A stretch of 44,174 nt of DNA, taken from positions 1 through 44,174 of the forward strand of contig NZ_CAIZIZ010000144.1 of assembly GCF_903933125.1 (NCBI RefSeq), given 5' to 3'. Source of the stretch: an uncultured Lamprocystis sp. Its GTDB lineage: Bacteria; Pseudomonadota; Gammaproteobacteria; Chromatiales; Chromatiaceae. The notes under the pieces are model-generated. The model was not told where the DNA came from and did not search any database. It was given only the letters and a program-made list of their open reading frames with translations. Position numbers and translations under genes: made by a program. This document shows positions 5,655-31,287 of this stretch, piece by piece (the first letter of the stretch is position 1; each line of letters begins with the position of its first letter).

Positions 5655-6131
5655 ATGGACAATGACGCCTTCCGTGACACCTACCGAGCGGTCAACACCC
5701 GCGCTTGTGTGTTTGAGAAAACCATTCTGACCAGCAATGGTGCCTGTTCCCTGGCCCAAAAGTTCTGTATCGCCGAACGCGAGGGCGTCCGTTGCGCAGC
5801 AGACCAAGCACTGGCCGACTGCACCGAACTGCTGAGCACCCTGCGGCGTCAGGCGCGCTTCGCCCTCAAGACCCCCGCGGGTGTCGGGACCCCCGACGCC
5901 GCCGCCCTGCCCCACACCAAGGCCATGCGCATCCAGGTCGGCGGACTGCGCGGACTCCAGGCGGCGCTGACGCCGGACCAACCCATCCCCGTGCGTATCG
6001 CCGATATCCACGATACCGTCCGCACCGCGCTGGTCCGCTTCGGTGGACTGGACGCCCTACCCTTTCAGGACATCATCAAACAGATCGCCGCCTACCAGGG
6101 GCGTCGCCGCCGGCTGAAGAAACGCAAGTGA
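5655..6131 (+). CDS. Conserved cysteine-rich protein of unknown function
   Basis: The 158-residue protein starts MDNDAFRDTYRAVNTRACVFEKTIL. It carries five cysteines in its first third, C18, C31, C38, C47 and C56, and none afterwards. From memory, related proteins of beta- and gammaproteobacteria share the pattern CVxEK-(C)-AxxFxIAEREGVxC, followed later by KAMRIQVGGLRGLQ. The cysteine cluster suggests metal or Fe-S binding, which is inference. It starts 13 bases after hslR and is probably in the grxC-hslR operon. The open frame extends upstream antisense-free through hslR in another frame; that extension is a shadow. The basic tail GRRRRLKKRK could contact nucleic acid. Confidence 0.8.
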   Translation: MDNDAFRDTYRAVNTRACVFEKTILTSNGACSLAQKFCIAEREGVRCAADQALADCTELLSTLRRQARFALKTPAGVGTPDAAALPHTKAMRIQVGGLRGLQAALTPDQPIPVRIADIHDTVRTALVRFGGLDALPFQDIIKQIAAYQGRRRRLKKRK

Positions 6132-6553
6132 CGCCCTAAGGCGACTTCCGGCAAAGGGTCTACCGATCGGTAGGGGCGAGATTAGCTGTCGGACGTGATA
6201 GCCGGACTTAGCGGCGGGTTTTTAGCCCGCCCCTACACGAGTGTCTGTCCGGATATCAGGTACGAGGGCTAATGTAGGGGCGACTTCAGTCGCCCCTAAT
6301 GCCCTACCAATCGTACAGAAATGCGCTGTCGTGATATTGCCTCCCAGGAATCGCGTAAGGCGATTTTCATGAAAAGGTTTGGGCGCGGTGGCGCGCCCGC
6401 CGCGACGCAGCACCAAGCACGCTTGGTTTTGCCGCCTGAGGACGTCGGTCAGCCGGATCTGACGAGATCCCGAAACCTTCATGCCGCAGCAGGTGGGATC
6501 CAGATCGTCCAGGTCGCCAAATTCGCCGACCCCGTCGGTGCGTGCAGGCGGCC
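6132..6553. repeat. Cluster of palindromic dispersed repeats, otherwise gene-free
   Basis: At 6134 begins CTAAGGCGACTTCCGG, the end sequence of the element family at 16410-16519 and 17488-17566. At 6180-6236 is an inverted copy of the GGGTTT-core type (GTCGGACGTGATA.. then GCCCGCCCCTAC). At 6275-6298 is an 11-bp stem palindrome TAGGGGCGACT-TC-AGTCGCCCCTA. A further GTAAGGCGATTTTC lies near 6354. It appears to be several elements inserted into each other. From about 6370 to 6553 I see no gene or recognisable structure. Confidence 0.65.
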
Positions 6554-8518
6554 TCAAGCCGCACCTGGACCCGCAATCCGCCGCCGCGATAATCCCCCCC
6601 GACTGGCACGCGCCACCCGCGCCTTGGCCGTGGCCAGCAGGCGCCGATCCTCGTCGGTTTGAACCATGCCTTCCAGACTGGCGATCAGGGCATCGGCGGA
6701 CGCGTACTCGCCCGTGGCGCGGTTGAGCATCGCCAGGACACCGTAGAGGGCAAACGCCTCCTGAATGTGGAGCCGCGGGCGGCTCCCAAGACCGCTCAGC
6801 AAGGTCTTGGCCTCCTCCAGATCCCCGTCCTCGATCAATAAGCCGGCCAGATTCACACGGGCGAACAAATAGTCGGGATGCGCCGTGATCGTCCGTCGCA
6901 ACTGGTCCCGGCACTCCGCATCCCGTCCCTGCATGGAGCGGATAGCCGCCAGGTTACCCATGGCAGCCTGATGGTCCGGGACGCGCCCCAGGACCGCATG
7001 GACACAGGCCTCGGCGGCCACCAGCTCGCGATCGTGAATCAAACCCACCGATTCATCGAGCAGGGCCTGAAGATCCTCCGGCAGATCGGGCGGATCAGGC
7101 TGGCGATAGATTTCGGTCTCCAGCAGTCTGGCCTCACGCATCGCCGTACTGCCCCAGTATTGAACGGTCTCATGGTCCCCGACCAGACCGCACTCGCGGA
7201 GCGCGCGCAGCAACCCGAGGCGCTCTTGCTCGGTACCGACCGGCAACCGTGCCAGGTCGCGCAGGATGGTTGCCGCGCGCCGTTCGGGTTGACCGTCCGC
7301 CGGAGGCTCGGTCTGCGACTCGCGCGTCAGCCGATGCTTCAGCAGTTGCGTGGCGAAGAAACGCACCAATGAGTCGCCGGCCAGATAGCTCGCCTCCAGA
7401 TAGGTGTCGGTCGCGCTCAGCTCGTCGAAGCAGGTATCCACGGACGCTGGGTCCGCCGCGCGCAGTCGGTTCACCCAATCGATAGGCAGCACATGGGTCC
7501 AGTTGAACAGTGCCGGGTGAGCCGGGGGCCCCCCGTCCCGTTCCAGGATGGCCAGATTCTCTTCCGCCGCCGCATGATGCGGGGCACGCTCCAGAGTCTG
7601 CCGCCACAACGCCGCTGCCTGCTCGGCCTGTCCCAGCCGACTGGCGGCACCCGCTCCCAGGTTGAGCCGTTCGGTAACCAGGGGATCGGTCTCGCTGTTG
7701 ATCCAAGCCGCCTGATCGGCACCCGCGAACGCCTCCCAGGCGGCTTGGTCCTCCCGGATCAGCAACAGGCCGGAGAGCTGACCATAGGCATCCTCGACAC
7801 GGCGCGCCTGGACTTGAGCCAAGGGGGCAACGAGCGCGCGGACGCCGGTTTCATCGCCCTGATACAGCCGCAGCCGCAACGCCCAACCCAGGGCGAAAAG
7901 GTTGCCCTGGTCGTGCTGCCAGGCATCCAGGAAACACGCCAGCGCCTCCGCGATACGGTCCTGGTGAAAGAAGGCGACCGCCCGGTTGTTGCGGGCCGAG
8001 GTGAGGGCAAGACCGTCCAATGCCCGGACGGCACCCGCGAAATCATTGGCTTCCAGGTACAGCTTGCCGATATCAAACTGTTCCATCTGCGCGCGGGTCG
8101 CCCGCGAACCGTCGGGCTGTTCCAACAACGCATCCAGGTTTGCGATGTCGGGGAGCGCACTCCCGGCCAGAGCACCCAGGTCCCGTAACTGGTCCGCGAC
8201 CCGATTGGCCAAGAACAGATGATGGCCCGCGAGGGCAAACCGAAACAAGGTTTCCAGCGCCCGCGGACTCCGCGGCCGACGTTCCGCCCAATGATATGCG
8301 GCCAGGGTCGCCGCGCCGCGACTCTGACCCCGCTCCAGGGCCTGCAGCAACAGATGATTGGCGCCGCCGTGATCGGGAAACCGTTGGACCAGGATCTGCG
8401 TCCGCTCGACCGCCCGCTGGTAGTCACCGTCCCTGAGCAACCGTTCGATGGCCTTGAACTGGGCCGGCTCGGGCTGCGGGGTCTTGGCTTGCTGGGTCTT
8501 CGACGGCTTTTTCGGCAC
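6554..8518 (-). CDS. Large TPR-repeat protein, paralogue 1 (C-terminus altered)
   Basis: The 654-residue protein uses a GTG start (8518) and opens with the lysine-rich MPKKPSKTQQAK, almost the same as the paralogue at 9114-11099. It is mostly helical tetratricopeptide-like repeats, e.g. DYQRAVERTQILVQRFPDHGGANHLLLQALE, RNNRAVAFFHQDRIAEALACFLDAWQHDQGNLFALGWALRLR and a C-terminal DYLFARVNLAGLLIEDGDLEEAKTLLSG. No signal peptide or membrane segment is visible, so a cytoplasmic scaffold is likely. The paralogue ends with FIENLTALLRVP; this copy instead ends SRGGLSRRRIAGPGAA, so its last ~25 residues have been replaced. Function unknown. Confidence 0.8.
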   Translation of the reverse strand: MPKKPSKTQQAKTPQPEPAQFKAIERLLRDGDYQRAVERTQILVQRFPDHGGANHLLLQALERGQSRGAATLAAYHWAERRPRSPRALETLFRFALAGHHLFLANRVADQLRDLGALAGSALPDIANLDALLEQPDGSRATRAQMEQFDIGKLYLEANDFAGAVRALDGLALTSARNNRAVAFFHQDRIAEALACFLDAWQHDQGNLFALGWALRLRLYQGDETGVRALVAPLAQVQARRVEDAYGQLSGLLLIREDQAAWEAFAGADQAAWINSETDPLVTERLNLGAGAASRLGQAEQAAALWRQTLERAPHHAAAEENLAILERDGGPPAHPALFNWTHVLPIDWVNRLRAADPASVDTCFDELSATDTYLEASYLAGDSLVRFFATQLLKHRLTRESQTEPPADGQPERRAATILRDLARLPVGTEQERLGLLRALRECGLVGDHETVQYWGSTAMREARLLETEIYRQPDPPDLPEDLQALLDESVGLIHDRELVAAEACVHAVLGRVPDHQAAMGNLAAIRSMQGRDAECRDQLRRTITAHPDYLFARVNLAGLLIEDGDLEEAKTLLSGLGSRPRLHIQEAFALYGVLAMLNRATGEYASADALIASLEGMVQTDEDRRLLATAKARVARASRGGLSRRRIAGPGAA

Positions 8519-26536: not shown

Positions 26537-27091
26537 TCAGGTCTTCCACTTGATCGAGCATCCCATACTCGGGATTTGATCGGCGGGTCCGCGCCCGGTT
26601 GCGGCGACCTCCCGCATCGCCTCGAACAGGTCCCGCCGCACCCCGGCGGGCGCGGCTTCCTTGCGGCTCTCGTCGAGCCGCCCGCGGTACTGCAGACCCA
26701 GGTCCGCGTTGTAACCAAAAAAATCCGGGGTGCACACCGCGCCATAAGCACGGGCGACCGCCTGCGTCTCGTCGAACAGGTAGGGGAAGGGATAACCGAA
26801 GGTCTCGGCCACCTGCCGCATGTTCTCAAACCCGTCTTCCGGGTAGTCGGCGGGATCGTTGGACATGATCCCGACACAGCCGATGCCAAGCGCCTGAAGC
26901 TCCCGGACGTCCCGCACGATACGCTCGCGCACGGCCTTGACGTAAGGACAATGGTTGCAGATGAACATCACCAGCAACCCACGCTCACCTTTGCACTGGT
27001 CGCGGGTCCAGATCCGGCCGTCCACGCCGGGGAGTGAGAAATCAGGCGCGGCAGCGCCAAAGTCACAGACTGGGGTTTGCAGTGAAGCCAT
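26537..27091 (-). CDS. Thioredoxin-like/AhpC-TSA family protein
   Basis: The 184-residue protein begins MASLQTPVCDFGAAAPDFSLPGVDGRIWTRDQ and has the redox motif CNHCPYVKAVRERI (C45 and C48). Later come IMSNDPADYPEDGFENMRQVAETFGYPFPYLFDETQAVARAYGAVCTPDFFGYN and IPSMGCSIKWK. This is the widespread thioredoxin family protein whose CxxC is CNHCPYVK; relatives have disulfide reductase or peroxidase-like activity, mostly uncharacterised. GGAGG precedes the ATG at 27091. No signal peptide, so cytoplasmic. It could in principle serve the neighbouring peptide-modifying operon, but a 237-base gap with a palindromic repeat separates them. Confidence 0.88.
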   Translation of the reverse strand: MASLQTPVCDFGAAAPDFSLPGVDGRIWTRDQCKGERGLLVMFICNHCPYVKAVRERIVRDVRELQALGIGCVGIMSNDPADYPEDGFENMRQVAETFGYPFPYLFDETQAVARAYGAVCTPDFFGYNADLGLQYRGRLDESRKEAAPAGVRRDLFEAMREVAATGRGPADQIPSMGCSIKWKT

Positions 27092-27204
27092 GGCAGTCCT
27101 CCGGGCTCTTGAAGTGACGGTCGGGGCCGGGCGACCCAGGTTCCCCATGGTAACCAAATTGATCGGGATTCCAAACCCCGTGCGCGCGGCACTGCAACAG
27201 TCTC

Positions 27205-27302
27205 CCGTGGGAGCGGCCTCCGGCCGCGATGAGGTGCCGCGGTCAGCGCCCGATGCTCGCTCATTCGCGAGGCCCCATCGCGGCCGGAGGCCGCTCCCAC
27301 GG
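27205..27302. repeat. REP-type inverted pair
   Basis: CCGTGGGAGCGGCCTCCGGC begins the left arm (27205-27231) and the right arm (27276-27302) is its exact inverse, 27 bp each, with a 44-base spacer. The unit GTGGGAGCGGCC..GGCCGCGAT is also seen in the hairpin at 1-50. It separates the radical SAM operon from the thioredoxin-like gene and probably ends transcription or protects the 3' end. Confidence 0.8.
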
Positions 27303-27328
27303 GGTCGCGGTGTGGTGTGACGGCCGCC

Positions 27329-28474
27329 CTACTGCGTTTTTGGATGTTCCGGCCGAAGCCGGGCGCGGCGCACCGCGGCGGCGTTCATGTGCGCGAACAG
27401 TGCCCGATAGAGCGCGCAGTAAGGGTCCTTCTCGAACAGGGTGCCATGGACGGTGAAGGCCCGCACCGGGCATCCGCCGTGGCAGAGCGCCAGGTAGTCG
27501 CAGGCGATGCAGTCGCCCTGCAGTAAGGCTGCGGGGCGTTGACGGAAACGCTCCCTGGCGGGGCTTCCGGCCAGCAGCGTCCCCAGGTCCGCATCGGCGA
27601 ACAGGTTACCGAACCGGTGCTCGGGGTAACTCGTGACCCAGCAGTCGCATTGGGCCACATGGCCGTGCGGGTCGATGGCGACCAGATGGTTGGTGCAGTC
27701 GTCGGTCCAGATACAGGGAAGGACCGCATGAGCGCCGCTGAAATACCGCAGCAATTCGTCGAACGGGCCGACCCGGACGCCATCGGCCTCGCCGCGCTCC
27801 AGCCAGACGTTTGCCAGTTCGATGAAAAAACGCACCAGCGCCTCGGTCTCCAGGGGTAACAGCCGTTTGACCGCGTTGGCTTGCCCCCCCGGAAAAGGCG
27901 TGTTGACCTGGAAACTGTCGACCCCGAGTGCTTCGACGAAATAGCGGTAAAAGCGCTCGGCACCGATCTCCAGGGTGGCGGGGTTCGCCACCGCGATGAC
28001 CTGGACCTCGATCCCGGCGGAACGGGCCAGGCGGACGTTACGCTGCAAAATCCGGTCATAGTCGGCCGGGTCCCGCCCCCGCCGATGTCGGTAGTGATTG
28101 GGATAGTCCAGCGAGGTGCTGACGCTGTTGTCGAACATCGCACGGATCACGCCGTCCCAGGCCGGGCTGTAGCCGATCATGTTGGTCTGCAGCGCATGGA
28201 TTACCGTCCGCCCGCGCGCGGCTGCGGCGGCGTCGATCAGATCATGCGCCTGGGAGAACCAGGACGGCGGCAACGTCATGACCTCGCCGCCCTGCCAATG
28301 GATCTGGAGTTCGGCGATGCCCTTGGCGACCAGATGATCCAAGACTTTGCCGATCAGCACCGGCAGACGGTCCAGGGTGATCCAGCTCCCGTCCTTGTCC
28401 TCGAAGCAATAGTCGCAAGCGGCATTGCACCGCAGCGTCGGCAGCAGGATCAGCGAGAAGACCCTAGACCCCAT
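27329..28474 (-). CDS. Radical SAM/SPASM peptide maturase, GrrM/OscB-like
   Basis: The 381-residue enzyme carries the radical SAM cluster motif CNAACDYC (C16, C20, C23) preceded by LPTLR, and GGE at 62-64. Its SPASM-type C-terminal part has C254, C260, C276, C278, C322, C325, C331, C335 and C353 (CDCW.., CIACDYLALCHGGC), enough for two auxiliary Fe-S clusters. This architecture is that of sulfatase-maturase-like enzymes that modify peptides, including those that join Trp/Phe ring carbons to side chains three residues on. The start at 28474 overlaps the partner gene's stop by 11 bases, so it is translationally coupled. Substrate is most likely the 97-residue peptide encoded at 29399-29692. The longer frame to 28924 is a shadow. 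Confidence 0.85.
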   Translation of the reverse strand: MGSRVFSLILLPTLRCNAACDYCFEDKDGSWITLDRLPVLIGKVLDHLVAKGIAELQIHWQGGEVMTLPPSWFSQAHDLIDAAAAARGRTVIHALQTNMIGYSPAWDGVIRAMFDNSVSTSLDYPNHYRHRRGRDPADYDRILQRNVRLARSAGIEVQVIAVANPATLEIGAERFYRYFVEALGVDSFQVNTPFPGGQANAVKRLLPLETEALVRFFIELANVWLERGEADGVRVGPFDELLRYFSGAHAVLPCIWTDDCTNHLVAIDPHGHVAQCDCWVTSYPEHRFGNLFADADLGTLLAGSPARERFRQRPAALLQGDCIACDYLALCHGGCPVRAFTVHGTLFEKDPYCALYRALFAHMNAAAVRRARLRPEHPKTQ

Positions 28475-29261
28475 CGCCGGACCCGTCCCGCTCCGCGGCA
28501 TAGGCCGCCAGACTCTGGCGCAGTTCGGCGGCGGCGGCATCGAGATCCGCGAACAACCGCTTGACGCCGTCGCAGGCAAAATCGATCCGTGGCCACTTGA
28601 AATAGCCGCCGCAGGAGGCGAGCCACGGACACGCGCAACACTCGGCGGCGGCAGCGCGCAGCGATTCACGGAAGCCGGACAGGGACTCAGGCCCCTGATC
28701 GGACAGCGGTTCACCGCGCTCGTCCAGGACGCGGATCTGTGCCGGATCGCGCTCCAGCAAGTCCCAGAGATCGACCGGCGTCTGGTGGAGGAACGCGATG
28801 AGCAACCCGTGAAACGGCTCCACGGGCTGGGCCACGGTGGGGTTATGCAGGAACATGTCGAGTGCCTGCCGCGCCTCTTCGACTGTTGCCGCAGACGGCT
28901 GAGAACCGACCAGACGGACCGCAAAGCCCAGTGAGACCGCCAGCTTGACGGCCCGGGCCAGACCCGGAAGCCAGGGAATGGTCACGCGCACGGGATGGCG
29001 TGCCAACAAGGGCGTGCAGCGGTAGAGCAAGGGCAACTCAGCCTCGGGATCGGCCATGACCAGATCGACCGCCAGCCCGTCGCCCCAGTCCGCAAGCGGT
29101 GCCAGGTCCCCGGTGAGGGCGGTGAGTTGCACGAACGCGACCCCGTCGGGGATCTCAGCCCCGAATGCGGCCCGCAACTGCCCGCCGGCAGCGGCGCGCA
29201 CAATGACGGGGCGATCGGGAAAGGCGCGAAACAGGGCCGCGGGGATGTTGTGGACCATCAT
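28464..29261 (-). CDS. Partner protein with SPASM-like cysteine cluster but no radical SAM motif
   Basis: The 265-residue protein starts MMVHNIPAALFRAFPDRPVIVRA (AAGGGG lies 6 bases before the ATG at 29261). It looks like an alpha/beta barrel-type chain (VAVDLVMADPEAELPLLYRCTPLLARHPVRVTIPW, GFAVRLVGSQPS), but the CxxxCxxC motif is absent. Near its end sits ECCACPWLASCGGYFKWP (C208, C209, C211, C217) with C230 further on, which resembles the SPASM region CxxC-x5-CxGGC of the enzyme next door. I infer a degenerate radical SAM paralogue that serves as a peptide-recognition or scaffold subunit. I do not recognise a named family. It overlaps the maturase gene. Confidence 0.7.
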   Translation of the reverse strand: MMVHNIPAALFRAFPDRPVIVRAAAGGQLRAAFGAEIPDGVAFVQLTALTGDLAPLADWGDGLAVDLVMADPEAELPLLYRCTPLLARHPVRVTIPWLPGLARAVKLAVSLGFAVRLVGSQPSAATVEEARQALDMFLHNPTVAQPVEPFHGLLIAFLHQTPVDLWDLLERDPAQIRVLDERGEPLSDQGPESLSGFRESLRAAAAECCACPWLASCGGYFKWPRIDFACDGVKRLFADLDAAAAELRQSLAAYAAERDGSGDGV

Positions 29262-29398
29262 GACCAGCCCCTTCAGGATCGCGTCCGGTGCCGCCGTTCG
29301 ACCGGATGATCGCGGTGGCCGCAACGGCGATCATGACCGTGGCGGCACCATCGAGTCGGAGACCAGGACAAAACCCAGGTCAGTCCGAGCCGCGACGA

Positions 29399-29692
29399 TC
29401 AGCGCCGGTTGATCCAACTGCCGCCGCCACCACCCCGGCGGTTGATCCAACCGCCGCCCCCGCCATTGATCCAGCCACCGCCGCCGCCCCCATTGACCCA
29501 ACCGCCACCACCGCCGCGGCGATTGATCCAGCCGGCCTCGGCGTCCGTCCCGCCCCCGGCCATACCGCCAAAGACCGCGACACCGATCGCGATCTTCGAC
29601 CAGCGACCCAGGCCGATCAGGAAGTCCCGACGGCCTGGTTCGTCGAGGTGATCCAGGTCGGGATCGGGCACGGTTACAGGCTTATCACTCAT
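29399..29692 (-). CDS. Gly-rich RiPP precursor with Tat leader and five W-[I/V]-N motifs
   Basis: The 97-residue product is predicted as a ribosomal peptide precursor. Residues 1-20 are acidic and polar; RRDFLIGLG (R21, R22) and a hydrophobic IAIGVAVFGGMAGG form a twin-arginine signal. Ala51-Glu52-Ala53 is an AxA signal peptidase site, leaving a 44-residue core that begins GWINRRG. The core has W-I/V-N at 55-57, 65-67, 74-76, 82-84 and 93-95, divided by runs of 4-7 Gly and by RR pairs, ending WINRR. Aromatic-x-Asn triplets in Gly-rich repeats are the hallmark of GrrA/OscA-type substrates of cyclophane-forming radical SAM enzymes. GGAG precedes the ATG at 29692. The reading frame upstream of it to 29932 is a shadow. 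Confidence 0.85.
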   Translation of the reverse strand: MSDKPVTVPDPDLDHLDEPGRRDFLIGLGRWSKIAIGVAVFGGMAGGGTDAEAGWINRRGGGGGWVNGGGGGGWINGGGGGWINRRGGGGGSWINRR

Positions 29693-29748
29693 CTCGGTTC
29701 TCCGCAACGGACTTCTGTTGGCCTCACAATTGGACTCCCGATTGGCTT

Positions 29749-30213
29749 CTAAGGCGGAGTCGGATTGGAGTAGTGCATGGTGCGCAGCTTCCAGGCCCCG
29801 TCCAGTCTCTGGAGGAGCGCCGAGACATTCAATGCAAAGGTGCGGGGTGCACCCTTCAGCGAGTCCTGATAATCGCAGGTGGCCGTGAGCCAGCCGACAT
29901 CGCCGCTGCTGTCGCTGATCACCCAGGGGCAACTGCGCTTCAGGGTGCCGGCGTCGAAGTCCGCGAAGAAATTCCGGTACGCCTCCTCGATCTGCGTCGT
30001 GCCGACCCAGCGCTCGGCGGGGATAGTACCCATGACCACGGTCGTCTCGCCCGGGGCATACAGCTTCATCACGCCGGCCAGGTCGTGGGCGTCGAGTGCC
30101 TGTTCGTGGGCCTCGAACACCTCACCCAAGCCAGGTACCGGTGCGTCCGCGGCGATGGCCGGAACCCAGCACGCCGAGAGGACGGCCGCGAGCAATAAGG
30201 GTCTGGAAGTCAT
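29749..30213 (-). CDS. Exported NTF2/SnoaL-like protein
   Basis: The 154-residue protein has a signal MTSRPLLLAAVLSACWVPAIAADA; LSAC could be a lipobox (Cys15), or cleavage may follow AIA. The mature part is NTF2-like: LGEVFEAHEQALDAHDLAGVMKLYAPGETTVVMGTIPAERWVGTTQIEEAYRNFFADF and DVGWLTATCDYQD..NVSALLQRLDGAWKLRTMHYSN, as in DUF4440/SnoaL-like proteins. AGG lies 8 bases before the ATG at 30213; a GTG three codons upstream is the alternative. It is the first gene of the operon with the peptide precursor 56 bases on. It might bind or process the exported peptide outside the cytoplasm; this is inference. Confidence 0.8.
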   Translation of the reverse strand: MTSRPLLLAAVLSACWVPAIAADAPVPGLGEVFEAHEQALDAHDLAGVMKLYAPGETTVVMGTIPAERWVGTTQIEEAYRNFFADFDAGTLKRSCPWVISDSSGDVGWLTATCDYQDSLKGAPRTFALNVSALLQRLDGAWKLRTMHYSNPTPP

Positions 30214-30396
30214 ATCTTGCACCTATGGTCGACTGGGACCGGCCATTGCCGGAAACCCCGGGAAGCGGTTGGCAGTCCGGCCGGCGTCGAATCGGCTGCA
30301 CGACGGGTCTGCGCCGGCTCGAAATTCGTTGCCCCGACTGTGTGAATCAGCATAGCAGTATTTCCGGTACTGAACCTGAAAGCGCACCGGGCACCC

Positions 30397-31287
30397 TCAG
30401 GGGCACGCATCAGGTGCGGCGCAGGTCACACGATTGCGCCCATTCTGTTTGGATGCATAAAGGGCGCCATCCGCAATCTTGAACAGCGTCGTGATATCGC
30501 GCCCCTGAAGCGCGGGGACAGCGGTGATGCCGAAGCTCAAAGTCAGGTTCAAGGGGTCACCGCCCCCATCGGTCAGGACGGTCGCGGCGATGATCGAGCG
30601 GGCCCGCTCGACCCGCTCGCACAACTCGGCCGGGGTGCCGTTGCGCAACAACAGCCAGAATTCCTCACCGCCCACGCGAGCGACGATCCCGTCAGGTTCG
30701 AACAGCCCACGCAGCAGCTCGGCGATCTGCTTGAGCACCAGATCGCCGCGATCGTGCCCGCGGGCATCGTTGATTCGTTTGAAGTGGTCGATATCCGCCA
30801 CCACACATCCGAGCGGTGCGTCCGCCGAACCGCTTTGCGCCAGCGTTTCTTGCAGCCCGCGCCGATTCAGCAGCCCGGTGAGGGGGTCGGTCATCGCCAG
30901 GCGTTCCAGCCGCTCGGTGAGTTCGATAATGCGCTGTCCGGCGCGGATGCGCACCGCCAGTTCCTCGTTATCGAAGGGTTTGTGGATGAAGTCGTCCGCA
31001 CCCGCGTCCAGCGCTTCGACAATACCCGACTTCTCGTCGCGGGCGGTCAACAGGATCACATAGACCCAGCGGTCGAGGCTGCGCCCGCGGATGGCGCGGA
31101 TCAGTTCCAGTCCGCTCATACAAGGCATCATCCAGTCGGTGATGACAAACCGGATCGGTTCGCGGGCCAGCACCTCCATGGCCTCGCAGCCGTCCTGCGC
31201 CTCCTCCACCGCGTAGCCCGCGTTGGTCAGAAAGCGCACCAGCATACGCCGGGTGAAGCGCTGATCTTCAACCACCAGGATCTTCAT
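30397..31287 (-). CDS. Response regulator with GGDEF diguanylate cyclase domain
   Basis: The 296-residue protein has a CheY-like receiver (about 1-120: VVEDQ, phosphoacceptor D51 in TDWMMP, T81, K103) and a GGDEF domain (about 130-290: MTDPLTGLLNRRG, DIDHFKRINDARGHDRGD, GGEEF at 206-210). GGEEF is an active-site form, so it should make cyclic di-GMP when phosphorylated. The usual RxxD inhibitory site nine residues before GGEEF is EPDG here, so product inhibition is probably missing. Its start overlaps the hybrid kinase stop by four bases (ATGA), so that kinase is its likely phosphodonor. Confidence 0.95.
   Translation of the reverse strand: MKILVVEDQRFTRRMLVRFLTNAGYAVEEAQDGCEAMEVLAREPIRFVITDWMMPCMSGLELIRAIRGRSLDRWVYVILLTARDEKSGIVEALDAGADDFIHKPFDNEELAVRIRAGQRIIELTERLERLAMTDPLTGLLNRRGLQETLAQSGSADAPLGCVVADIDHFKRINDARGHDRGDLVLKQIAELLRGLFEPDGIVARVGGEEFWLLLRNGTPAELCERVERARSIIAATVLTDGGGDPLNLTLSFGITAVPALQGRDITTLFKIADGALYASKQNGRNRVTCAAPDACP

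Follow-up and report, generated by a model that had tools for sequence, protein, structure and literature searches.

A candidate operon for a Tat-exported, glycine-rich poly-cyclophane polypeptide in an uncultured Lamprocystis

What product is made when a glycine-rich protein with tryptophan repeats is encoded beside a radical S-adenosylmethionine (SAM) enzyme? The question is raised by a four-gene locus in a 44,174-nucleotide stretch of DNA from an uncultured Lamprocystis sp. of the Chromatiaceae (assembly GCF_903933125.1, contig NZ_CAIZIZ010000144.1), here called the window. The original prediction, made from the sequence alone, had read this locus as an operon for a ribosomally synthesized and post-translationally modified peptide (RiPP) that carries cyclophanes on W-x-N triplets and is exported by the twin-arginine translocation (Tat) pathway. 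We consider it probable that the operon makes a glycine-rich, exported poly-cyclophane polypeptide from a precursor with a Tat-type leader, by means of a radical SAM/SPASM maturase and a partner protein. The predicted arrangement was confirmed, with four minus-strand genes in close order, a 97-residue precursor and partner and maturase genes sharing 11 overlapping bases, all at the positions given (Table 1). The genes are transcribed in the order NTF2-like protein, precursor, partner and maturase, with intervals of 56, 137 and -11 bases, respectively.

The window precursor carries RRDFLIGLGRWSK, a hydrophobic stretch and an AEA sequence, followed by W-[IV]-N triplets with runs of glycine between them. 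A total of 40 distinct precursors was collected from this and related loci (L numbers; G numbers denote genomes), with L157, a repeat of L056, counted once. The 39 that fit the leader pattern were used for the motif count, including L112 and L114, both truncated at contig ends, as well as L051 from a broken operon; L054, with an RRELL leader and seven W-x-N triplets by eye, was omitted. Among the 295 core tryptophans of these 39 precursors, 253 stand in W-x-N and 15 in W-x-D. The W-x-N number is about 7.5-fold the mean of 34 obtained from 2000 shuffled cores, of which the maximum was 51. Asparagine lies at +2 from tryptophan in 236 of 279 cases, at +1 in 12 and at +3 in one, as counted in a slightly smaller set without L054 and L154, with the leader boundary misplaced in two precursors. 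The first position is nearly always Trp: out of 138 other candidates (82 Tyr, 41 His and 15 Phe) a single residue sits two before Asn or Asp. The middle residue is chiefly V, I, Y, A or G, and the number of triplets per precursor ranges from one, in a contig-cut precursor, up to 17. The glycine-rich W-x-N core expected next to the maturase is thus conserved in the relatives. Triceptides are recognized by repeats of aromatic-x-N/D triplets in a precursor encoded next to a SPASM radical SAM enzyme, and this combination is found in the window and its relatives, the exceptions being L060 and L067. Given this almost exclusively Trp-based i,i+2 repeat with Asn and an enzyme of the radical SAM/SPASM superfamily beside it, Trp-Asn cyclophanes are the most likely product.

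The distribution of the genes suggests that they act together. With the partner P0005 alone as the query, 18 of 210 genomes of the window's family were found, and the maturase profile (E ≤ 1e-50) detected 18 of 204 genomes, identical to those of the partner. The precursor profile (E ≤ 1e-6) detected 16 of 202, all within the same 18. The two genomes without a precursor match are G056, in which a contig ends inside the partner, and G116, which has a broken partner and no precursor found; membership of both in the sample of 202 is uncertain. The profiles A1-A4 were made from 12-18 members of the family, so the re-finding of those members is by construction. Since they were built from rows of the matched genomes, what the counts tell lies in the genomes without a match and in how well the three lists agree. 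The order precursor-partner-maturase is kept in 16 of the 19 family loci, 15 with an intact maturase and one (L033) with a broken maturase, and at six loci outside the family (L053, L054, L057, L063, L065 and L069, the maturase of L053 being cut by a contig end). Therefore, the proposal of one functional unit stands in sequence terms, and in the Chromatiaceae its co-occurrence holds for maturase and partner in the same 18 genomes and for the precursor in 16, whereas all four genes are present in 11 of the 19 loci.

Outside the family, the maturase was present in all 11 genomes found via the partner, and the partner in both genomes found via the maturase. In four of those 11 genomes the maturase is encoded at another site of the genome, not next to the partner: L056, L059 and L066 contain precursor and partner only, and L055 begins at the partner. 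When one genome of each GTDB species was scanned, the partner profile yielded 28 named loci. The hosts within the Chromatiaceae are Lamprocystis, Thiorhodococcus, Thiodictyon, Halochromatium and Rhabdochromatium. L045 holds the precursor, partner and maturase genes of Lamprocystis purpurea DSM 4197. Beyond this family, they include Contendobacter/Competibacteraceae, Accumulibacter, Geobacter, Desulforhabdus, Desulfobulbaceae and other sulfate reducers, as well as deltaproteobacterial, Acidobacteria and Hydrogenedentes metagenome-assembled genomes (MAGs). As the hosts are mostly MAGs, single assignments such as the Synechococcaceae bin L066 may be wrong. No relative was found on viral contigs. 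Three genomes, G211 and the class-level relatives G288 and G418 found via the maturase, encode one maturase and one partner each, together with four (G211), five (G288) and four (G418) scattered precursor loci; a single enzyme pair thus appears to act in trans on several precursors.

A few loci weigh against the proposed product. Partner and maturase occur at L060 and L067 with no W-x-N precursor found in the stretches read (L060, 1.3 kb on the upstream side; L067, 3.8 kb on that side and several kb on the other), the rest of the two genomes not having been searched. L070 shows no precursor downstream, and L070 and L071 are cut within the partner. The hosts of L060 and L067, the latter being Desulfococcaceae HSG9, are sulfate reducers, and the precursor is thus unlinked, different or missing in the sulfate-reducer branch to which L060, L067 and L070 point.

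Two further loci illustrate duplication and decay. G182 contains two operons, with two full copies each of maturase and partner, and what is left of a third partner gene lies at positions 8643-8923 of L043. In Candidatus Thiodictyon intracellulare (L051, 2295-4403) stop codons break up the maturase and the precursor retains only two triplets, which fits a function dispensable to the endosymbiont.

The partner had been described as a protein with a SPASM-like Cys cluster. Residues C208, C211, C217 and C230 are invariant in all 31 partners compared, and the radical SAM motif CX3CX2C is present in none of them; this set excludes pieces shorter than 600 bases (L043, L052, L068, L070 and L071) and the repeat L157, and L066 is represented by the longer of its two pieces. 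Alignment by hhalign placed the C-terminal part of the partner on the SPASM domain of the maturase at an E-value of 8.8e-5. Its CX2CX5C and final Cys thereby match C322, C325, C331 and C353 of the maturase, which line up with auxiliary cluster II (AuxII). Invariant Cys residues aligned with AuxII and the lack of CX3CX2C are as expected of a paralogue without SAM cleavage and auxiliary cluster I (AuxI) but with AuxII. The partner is probably an inactivated radical-SAM/SPASM paralogue of this kind, with an AuxII-like site as the only one retained. The predicted Cys cluster is therefore real, but it appears to belong to a whole inactivated paralogue and not to a SPASM fragment. Its AlphaFold2 (AF2) model has a predicted local distance difference test (pLDDT) score of 89.5, and the best match by Foldseek in the PDB is the cyclophane synthase ChlB (9gmc, E 9e-5).

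Several results argue the other way. The hhalign probability is 60%, and the ChlB match has a query-normalized TM-score (TMq) of 0.50 with a root-mean-square deviation of 6.7. Moreover, 8 of the 11 Foldseek matches at E ≤ 0.001 are fructose-6-phosphate aldolase/transaldolase TIM barrels with comparable E-values (TMq 0.24-0.29). Nothing above noise was found for 16 members in Pfam or NCBIfam, and the partner profile gave no match to PDB sequences at E ≤ 10. The low pairwise identity, the TMq value and the lack of a family match would suit a substrate-carrying Fe-S or zinc protein unrelated to radical SAM enzymes. This explanation seems rather unlikely to us, given that the CX2CX5C...C block is in register with the AuxII quartet of the maturase and that the partner profile also matches the maturase SPASM domain in G213 (E 5e-4). 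The Foldseek matches as a set indicate a TIM-barrel-like fold leaning to radical SAM.

The window maturase exceeds the cut-offs of Pfam Radical_SAM (31.8 versus 29.5 bits) and SPASM TIGR04085 (50 versus 27 bits), and lies below that of Pfam SPASM (18 versus 21.5 bits). All 33 maturases compared, a set that excludes pieces shorter than 250 residues (L051 and L053), share the CX3CX2C motif, eight Cys residues of the SPASM region, D277 and an additional C278. Except for C278, these residues line up with anSMEcpe (4k37), of which we take C255/C261/C276/C330 to be the AuxI set and C317/C320/C326/C348 the AuxII set. In the maturase tree, the 33 sequences are split from 15 other radical SAM/SPASM sequences by a branch of 1.4 changes per site with support of 99/98, in a tree with long branches (noted in a program warning) and few references. 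A Pseudomonas plasmid sequence joins beside the clade with weak support (86/79) on a long branch. The maturase profile separates its weakest member, at 517 bits, from the strongest outsider, at 143 bits. The AF2 model (pLDDT 78) matches anSMEcpe as the top hit and ChlB about equally, and is poor in the last SPASM part, with pLDDT below 50 at residues 314-349, which weakens the structural argument.

The likeness to anSMEcpe raises the question whether the maturase merely oxidizes or otherwise modifies a single residue, such as Asn (at Cβ) or Trp, using Asp277 as the base in the manner of anaerobic sulfatase maturases, and makes no cross-link. The Cys set and the CD motif match those of anSMEcpe, the top fold match, and the retained anSME-like Asp means that oxidation could take the place of a cross-link, a point against cyclophanes. 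We nevertheless regard this as improbable, since the strict i,i+2 spacing of Trp and Asn involves both residues. In addition, the 39 cores contain 8 Cys in total, so there is no recurrent Cys target, and the Asp is also kept in the DynA-like sequence L161, which scores 228 bits on DynA, under the cut-off of 450.

The window maturase lies far below every full-length NCBIfam cut-off. The top model is DynA NF041298 (133 versus 450 bits), which is matched by all 18 maturase members at E ≤ 1e-5, and the scores for TIGR04261 (GrrM) and NF041718 (AmcB system) are 78.5 versus 310 and 69.8 versus 425 bits, respectively. A GRRM/OscB system in the strict sense, with a divergent GrrM, would likewise have aromatic-x-Asn triplets in a Gly-rich precursor core and a maturase of the radical SAM/SPASM type. 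The GrrA/OscA1 model TIGR04260 also gives weak matches in 8 of 17 precursors (best E 1.2e-4). With a cut-off of 31 bits, one of seven further precursors (L057) scored 17.8 bits and the other six had no match. The AmcA model NF041721 (cut-off 40 bits) matched one of these seven, L113, at 36.8 bits over residues 139-162, and none of the 17 at E ≤ 1. The window precursor matches neither model, and no precursor was seen to reach TIGR04260. These weak or sub-cut-off matches speak for a cyclophane precursor, but may stem from Gly/Trp/Asn composition. Of two GrrM-type references, one above the TIGR04261 cut-off (347 bits) and one below (298 bits), the four AuxI positions hold Cys in 0 of 4 and 1 of 4 cases and Asp277 is present in neither, whereas all are present in the 33 members and in L161-L163, which are anSME- or DynA-like sequences. 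No GrrA-like open reading frame (ORF) was seen beside these two GrrM-type genes with a simple filter. On the sub-cut-off score, the separate clade (with the long branches and few references mentioned) and the differences in AuxI Cys and Asp, GrrM membership was rejected, and a strict GRRM system is very improbable. The present system further differs in having Trp almost only at the first position, a Tat-type leader and a pseudo-radical-SAM partner. Thus the separation from GRRM anticipated by the original prediction was upheld, and its choice of GrrM/OscB as the point of reference gave way to DynA as the nearest model. As for an ordinary anaerobic sulfatase maturase that happens to adjoin an unrelated Gly-rich exported protein, this is scarcely credible: TIGR03942 is the second-best model at 120 bits and the Cys set and CD motif are alike, but the score is far under the cut-off of 349, another protein of the same genome exceeds that cut-off with 466 bits, and the family precursors are found only where maturase and partner are present.

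According to PMC11002830, OscB joins Trp C7 to Asn/Asp Cβ and XncB joins Trp C6 to Arg/Asn Cβ, both across one residue, and the dynobactin enzyme joins Trp C6 to Asn Cβ at i+3, across two residues. Dynobactin resembles the proposed product in its Trp-Asn Cβ bond, and differs in the i,i+3 spacing, an additional Tyr-His C-N link and its nature as an isolated antibiotic, compared with a long repeat protein here. The AmcA/AmcB multiple-cyclophane system is alike in that the family precursor L113 comes near the cut-off, and unlike it in the maturase score. The multiple cyclophane synthase ChlB (9gm3, 9gmc) is a fold match of both the maturase and the partner models, at 14-18% identity, and is described in PMC12636437 as a radical SAM domain fused to an α-ketoglutarate (αKG)-HExxH domain. 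PMC12093266 reports that TrnC and TrnD of Thuricin CD are two radical SAM proteins that form a complex, in which the radical SAM activity of only one is strictly essential; both are active enzymes and their chemistry is that of thioethers, unlike the present case. The partner may represent this two-protein arrangement taken further, by analogy.

The leader of the window precursor contains the motif RRDFLIGLG and an AEA site. Paired arginines are present in all 40 retained precursors, 39 by the entry rule of the leader script (RRxF[LIVM]) and L054, the sole profile match lacking it, as RRELL. An A-x-A-like site by a loose pattern was found in 38 of 38 precursors, and an LG[KR]WS block inside the leader is conserved. 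No NCBIfam or Pfam model was found for the leader. The Tat assignment of the original prediction thus agrees with the motif (RR, hydrophobic stretch and A-x-A) and finds no counterpart in the curated Tat models: none of 17 precursors matched them at E ≤ 1, and one of seven further precursors reached 14.3 bits on TIGR01409, against a cut-off of 16.7. The hydrophobic stretch also includes K/R, and K/R within this stretch is uncommon for Tat signals. These results count against Tat, and dependence of export on Tat is put forward as a prediction.

Table 1. Features of the operon in the window and DUF3313-type genes at related loci
Feature	Contig or locus	Position	Strand	Remarks
NTF2-like (SnoaL_3) protein P0003, 154 aa	Window	29749..30213	-	Pfam SnoaL_3 45.9 bits, cut-off 22; optional member
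Precursor P0002, 97 aa	Window	29399..29692	-	Tat-type leader; five W-[IV]-N triplets within poly-Gly core
Partner P0005, 265 aa	Window	28464..29261	-	Probable pseudo-radical-SAM protein retaining AuxII-like 4-Cys site
Radical SAM/SPASM maturase P0004, 381 aa	Window	27329..28474	-	Profile matches, invariant Cys, AF2 model
DUF3313-type gene	L151	2412-3161		124.7 bits
DUF3313-type gene	L148	3799-4548
DUF3313-type gene	L030	9093-9845
DUF3313-type gene	L048	~230-890
DUF3313-type gene	L051	~1464-2156

The first gene of the operon was correctly recognized in the window as NTF2-like, but is an optional member, as it lies beside 21 of 40 precursor loci; it is present at five of the six loci outside the family that have the ordered three genes. 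The protein has a hydrophobic N-terminal stretch by direct reading, and by the look of this N-terminus it is predicted to be exported. At L148, L151 and L158 the gene adjoins the precursor with neither enzyme within the 10-11 kb read, indicating that it goes with the precursor and not with the enzyme at these loci. A DUF3313 gene directly precedes the precursor, or the NTF2-like gene and precursor together, at three Thiodictyon-type loci (L030, L048 and L051) and at L151 and L148 of G288 and G418. Among ORFs of at least 100 residues within 6 kb, no family was common to more than 3 of 21 loci, several of which are cut by contig ends. Accordingly, no shared peptidase or transporter of such size was seen, and Tat export with signal peptidase cleavage would suffice.

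Based on these comparisons, we propose the following pathway for the operon product. Through the leader, with the LG[KR]WS block inside it, the enzyme complex would recognize the precursor, and the leader would double as the Tat signal peptide. The maturase is predicted to bind three clusters, namely the radical SAM cluster, AuxI and AuxII, and the partner, by its Cys pattern, may bind one at its AuxII-like site within a complex of the two proteins. Together they would abstract a hydrogen from Cβ of Asn, rarely Asp, and this carbon would be joined to the indole of the Trp that opens the triplet, giving one link and the loss of two hydrogens per W-x-N. Such stapled rings would be unfit for threading through the general secretory (Sec) pathway, which would explain the use of Tat rather than Sec, and the cross-linked protein would leave the cell folded. 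Signal peptidase is then expected to cut at A-x-A, with no dedicated protease or ATP-binding cassette (ABC) transporter. In some hosts the NTF2-like protein, and occasionally a DUF3313 lipoprotein, may handle the product outside the cytoplasm. As the repeats are long and no immunity gene recurs, we conjecture that the product is an envelope or matrix component in preference to an antibiotic.

A broader proposal is more tentative, and we hold it with somewhat less than even confidence. The family might represent a branch of RiPPs that use the Tat signal as leader, and Tat as exporter because the core is stapled first. In this branch a dead paralogue with an AuxII-only cluster would be obligate, one enzyme pair could serve several scattered precursors, and the products would be large exported poly-cyclophanes of up to 17 W-x-N/D, not small antibiotics. 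The three-residue-cyclophane chemistry, if confirmed, is of an already known kind, and the four-gene family is unnamed. Within the open-licence literature, to which the search extended and which leaves subscription papers outside its scope, no paper was found that links Tat or twin-arginine signals to radical SAM RiPPs. If the proposal is true, a RiPP leader would be coupled to Tat, which would explain the need of a stapled polypeptide for an exporter of folded proteins. It would also provide a natural dead radical-SAM subunit that retains an auxiliary-cluster site, making the role of an auxiliary cluster directly testable. Peptide-genome mining would gain an unnamed family from several phyla, with hosts that include bacteria from sludge and purple sulfur bacteria, and long multi-cyclophane materials would have a further source.

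The surroundings of the operon were also inspected. A stem-loop attenuator between precursor and partner was unsupported, as the fold of this intergenic stretch is unremarkable (z -1.0; 27 of 200 shuffles fold equally well) and a scan of 27150-30420 showed neither a terminator-like nor a promoter-like site. Just 3' of the maturase, at 27210-27297, the 21-base unit GGAGCGGCCTCCGGCCGCGAT forms a perfect inverted pair, which looks like a REP-type (repetitive extragenic palindromic) element; no further copy was found in the window at up to 2 mismatches. Downstream of the operon on its strand lies a gene for an AhpC/TSA-type thioredoxin-fold protein (26537-27091). Among the 19 family loci, it adjoins the operon in only L025 and L026, the two closest relatives, and was therefore left out of the operon parts.

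Other radical SAM genes were observed in two settings. In the Geobacter MAG of L054, a second radical SAM/SPASM gene (5764-6858) lies about 0.2 kb before the NTF2-like gene on the same strand, and groups with anSME/DynA-like sequences in the tree. Plasmid matches to the maturase comprise 211 records, with 27.9-28.6% identity among the 15 matches listed. On the Pseudomonas putida plasmid pKF715A (L165, 1-9095), type II secretion/pilin-like genes are followed by three consecutive radical SAM/SPASM genes and by a gene for a small protein ending in the Cys-His repeats CHTACHGACHGACHG, which is possibly another radical-SAM-modified peptide.

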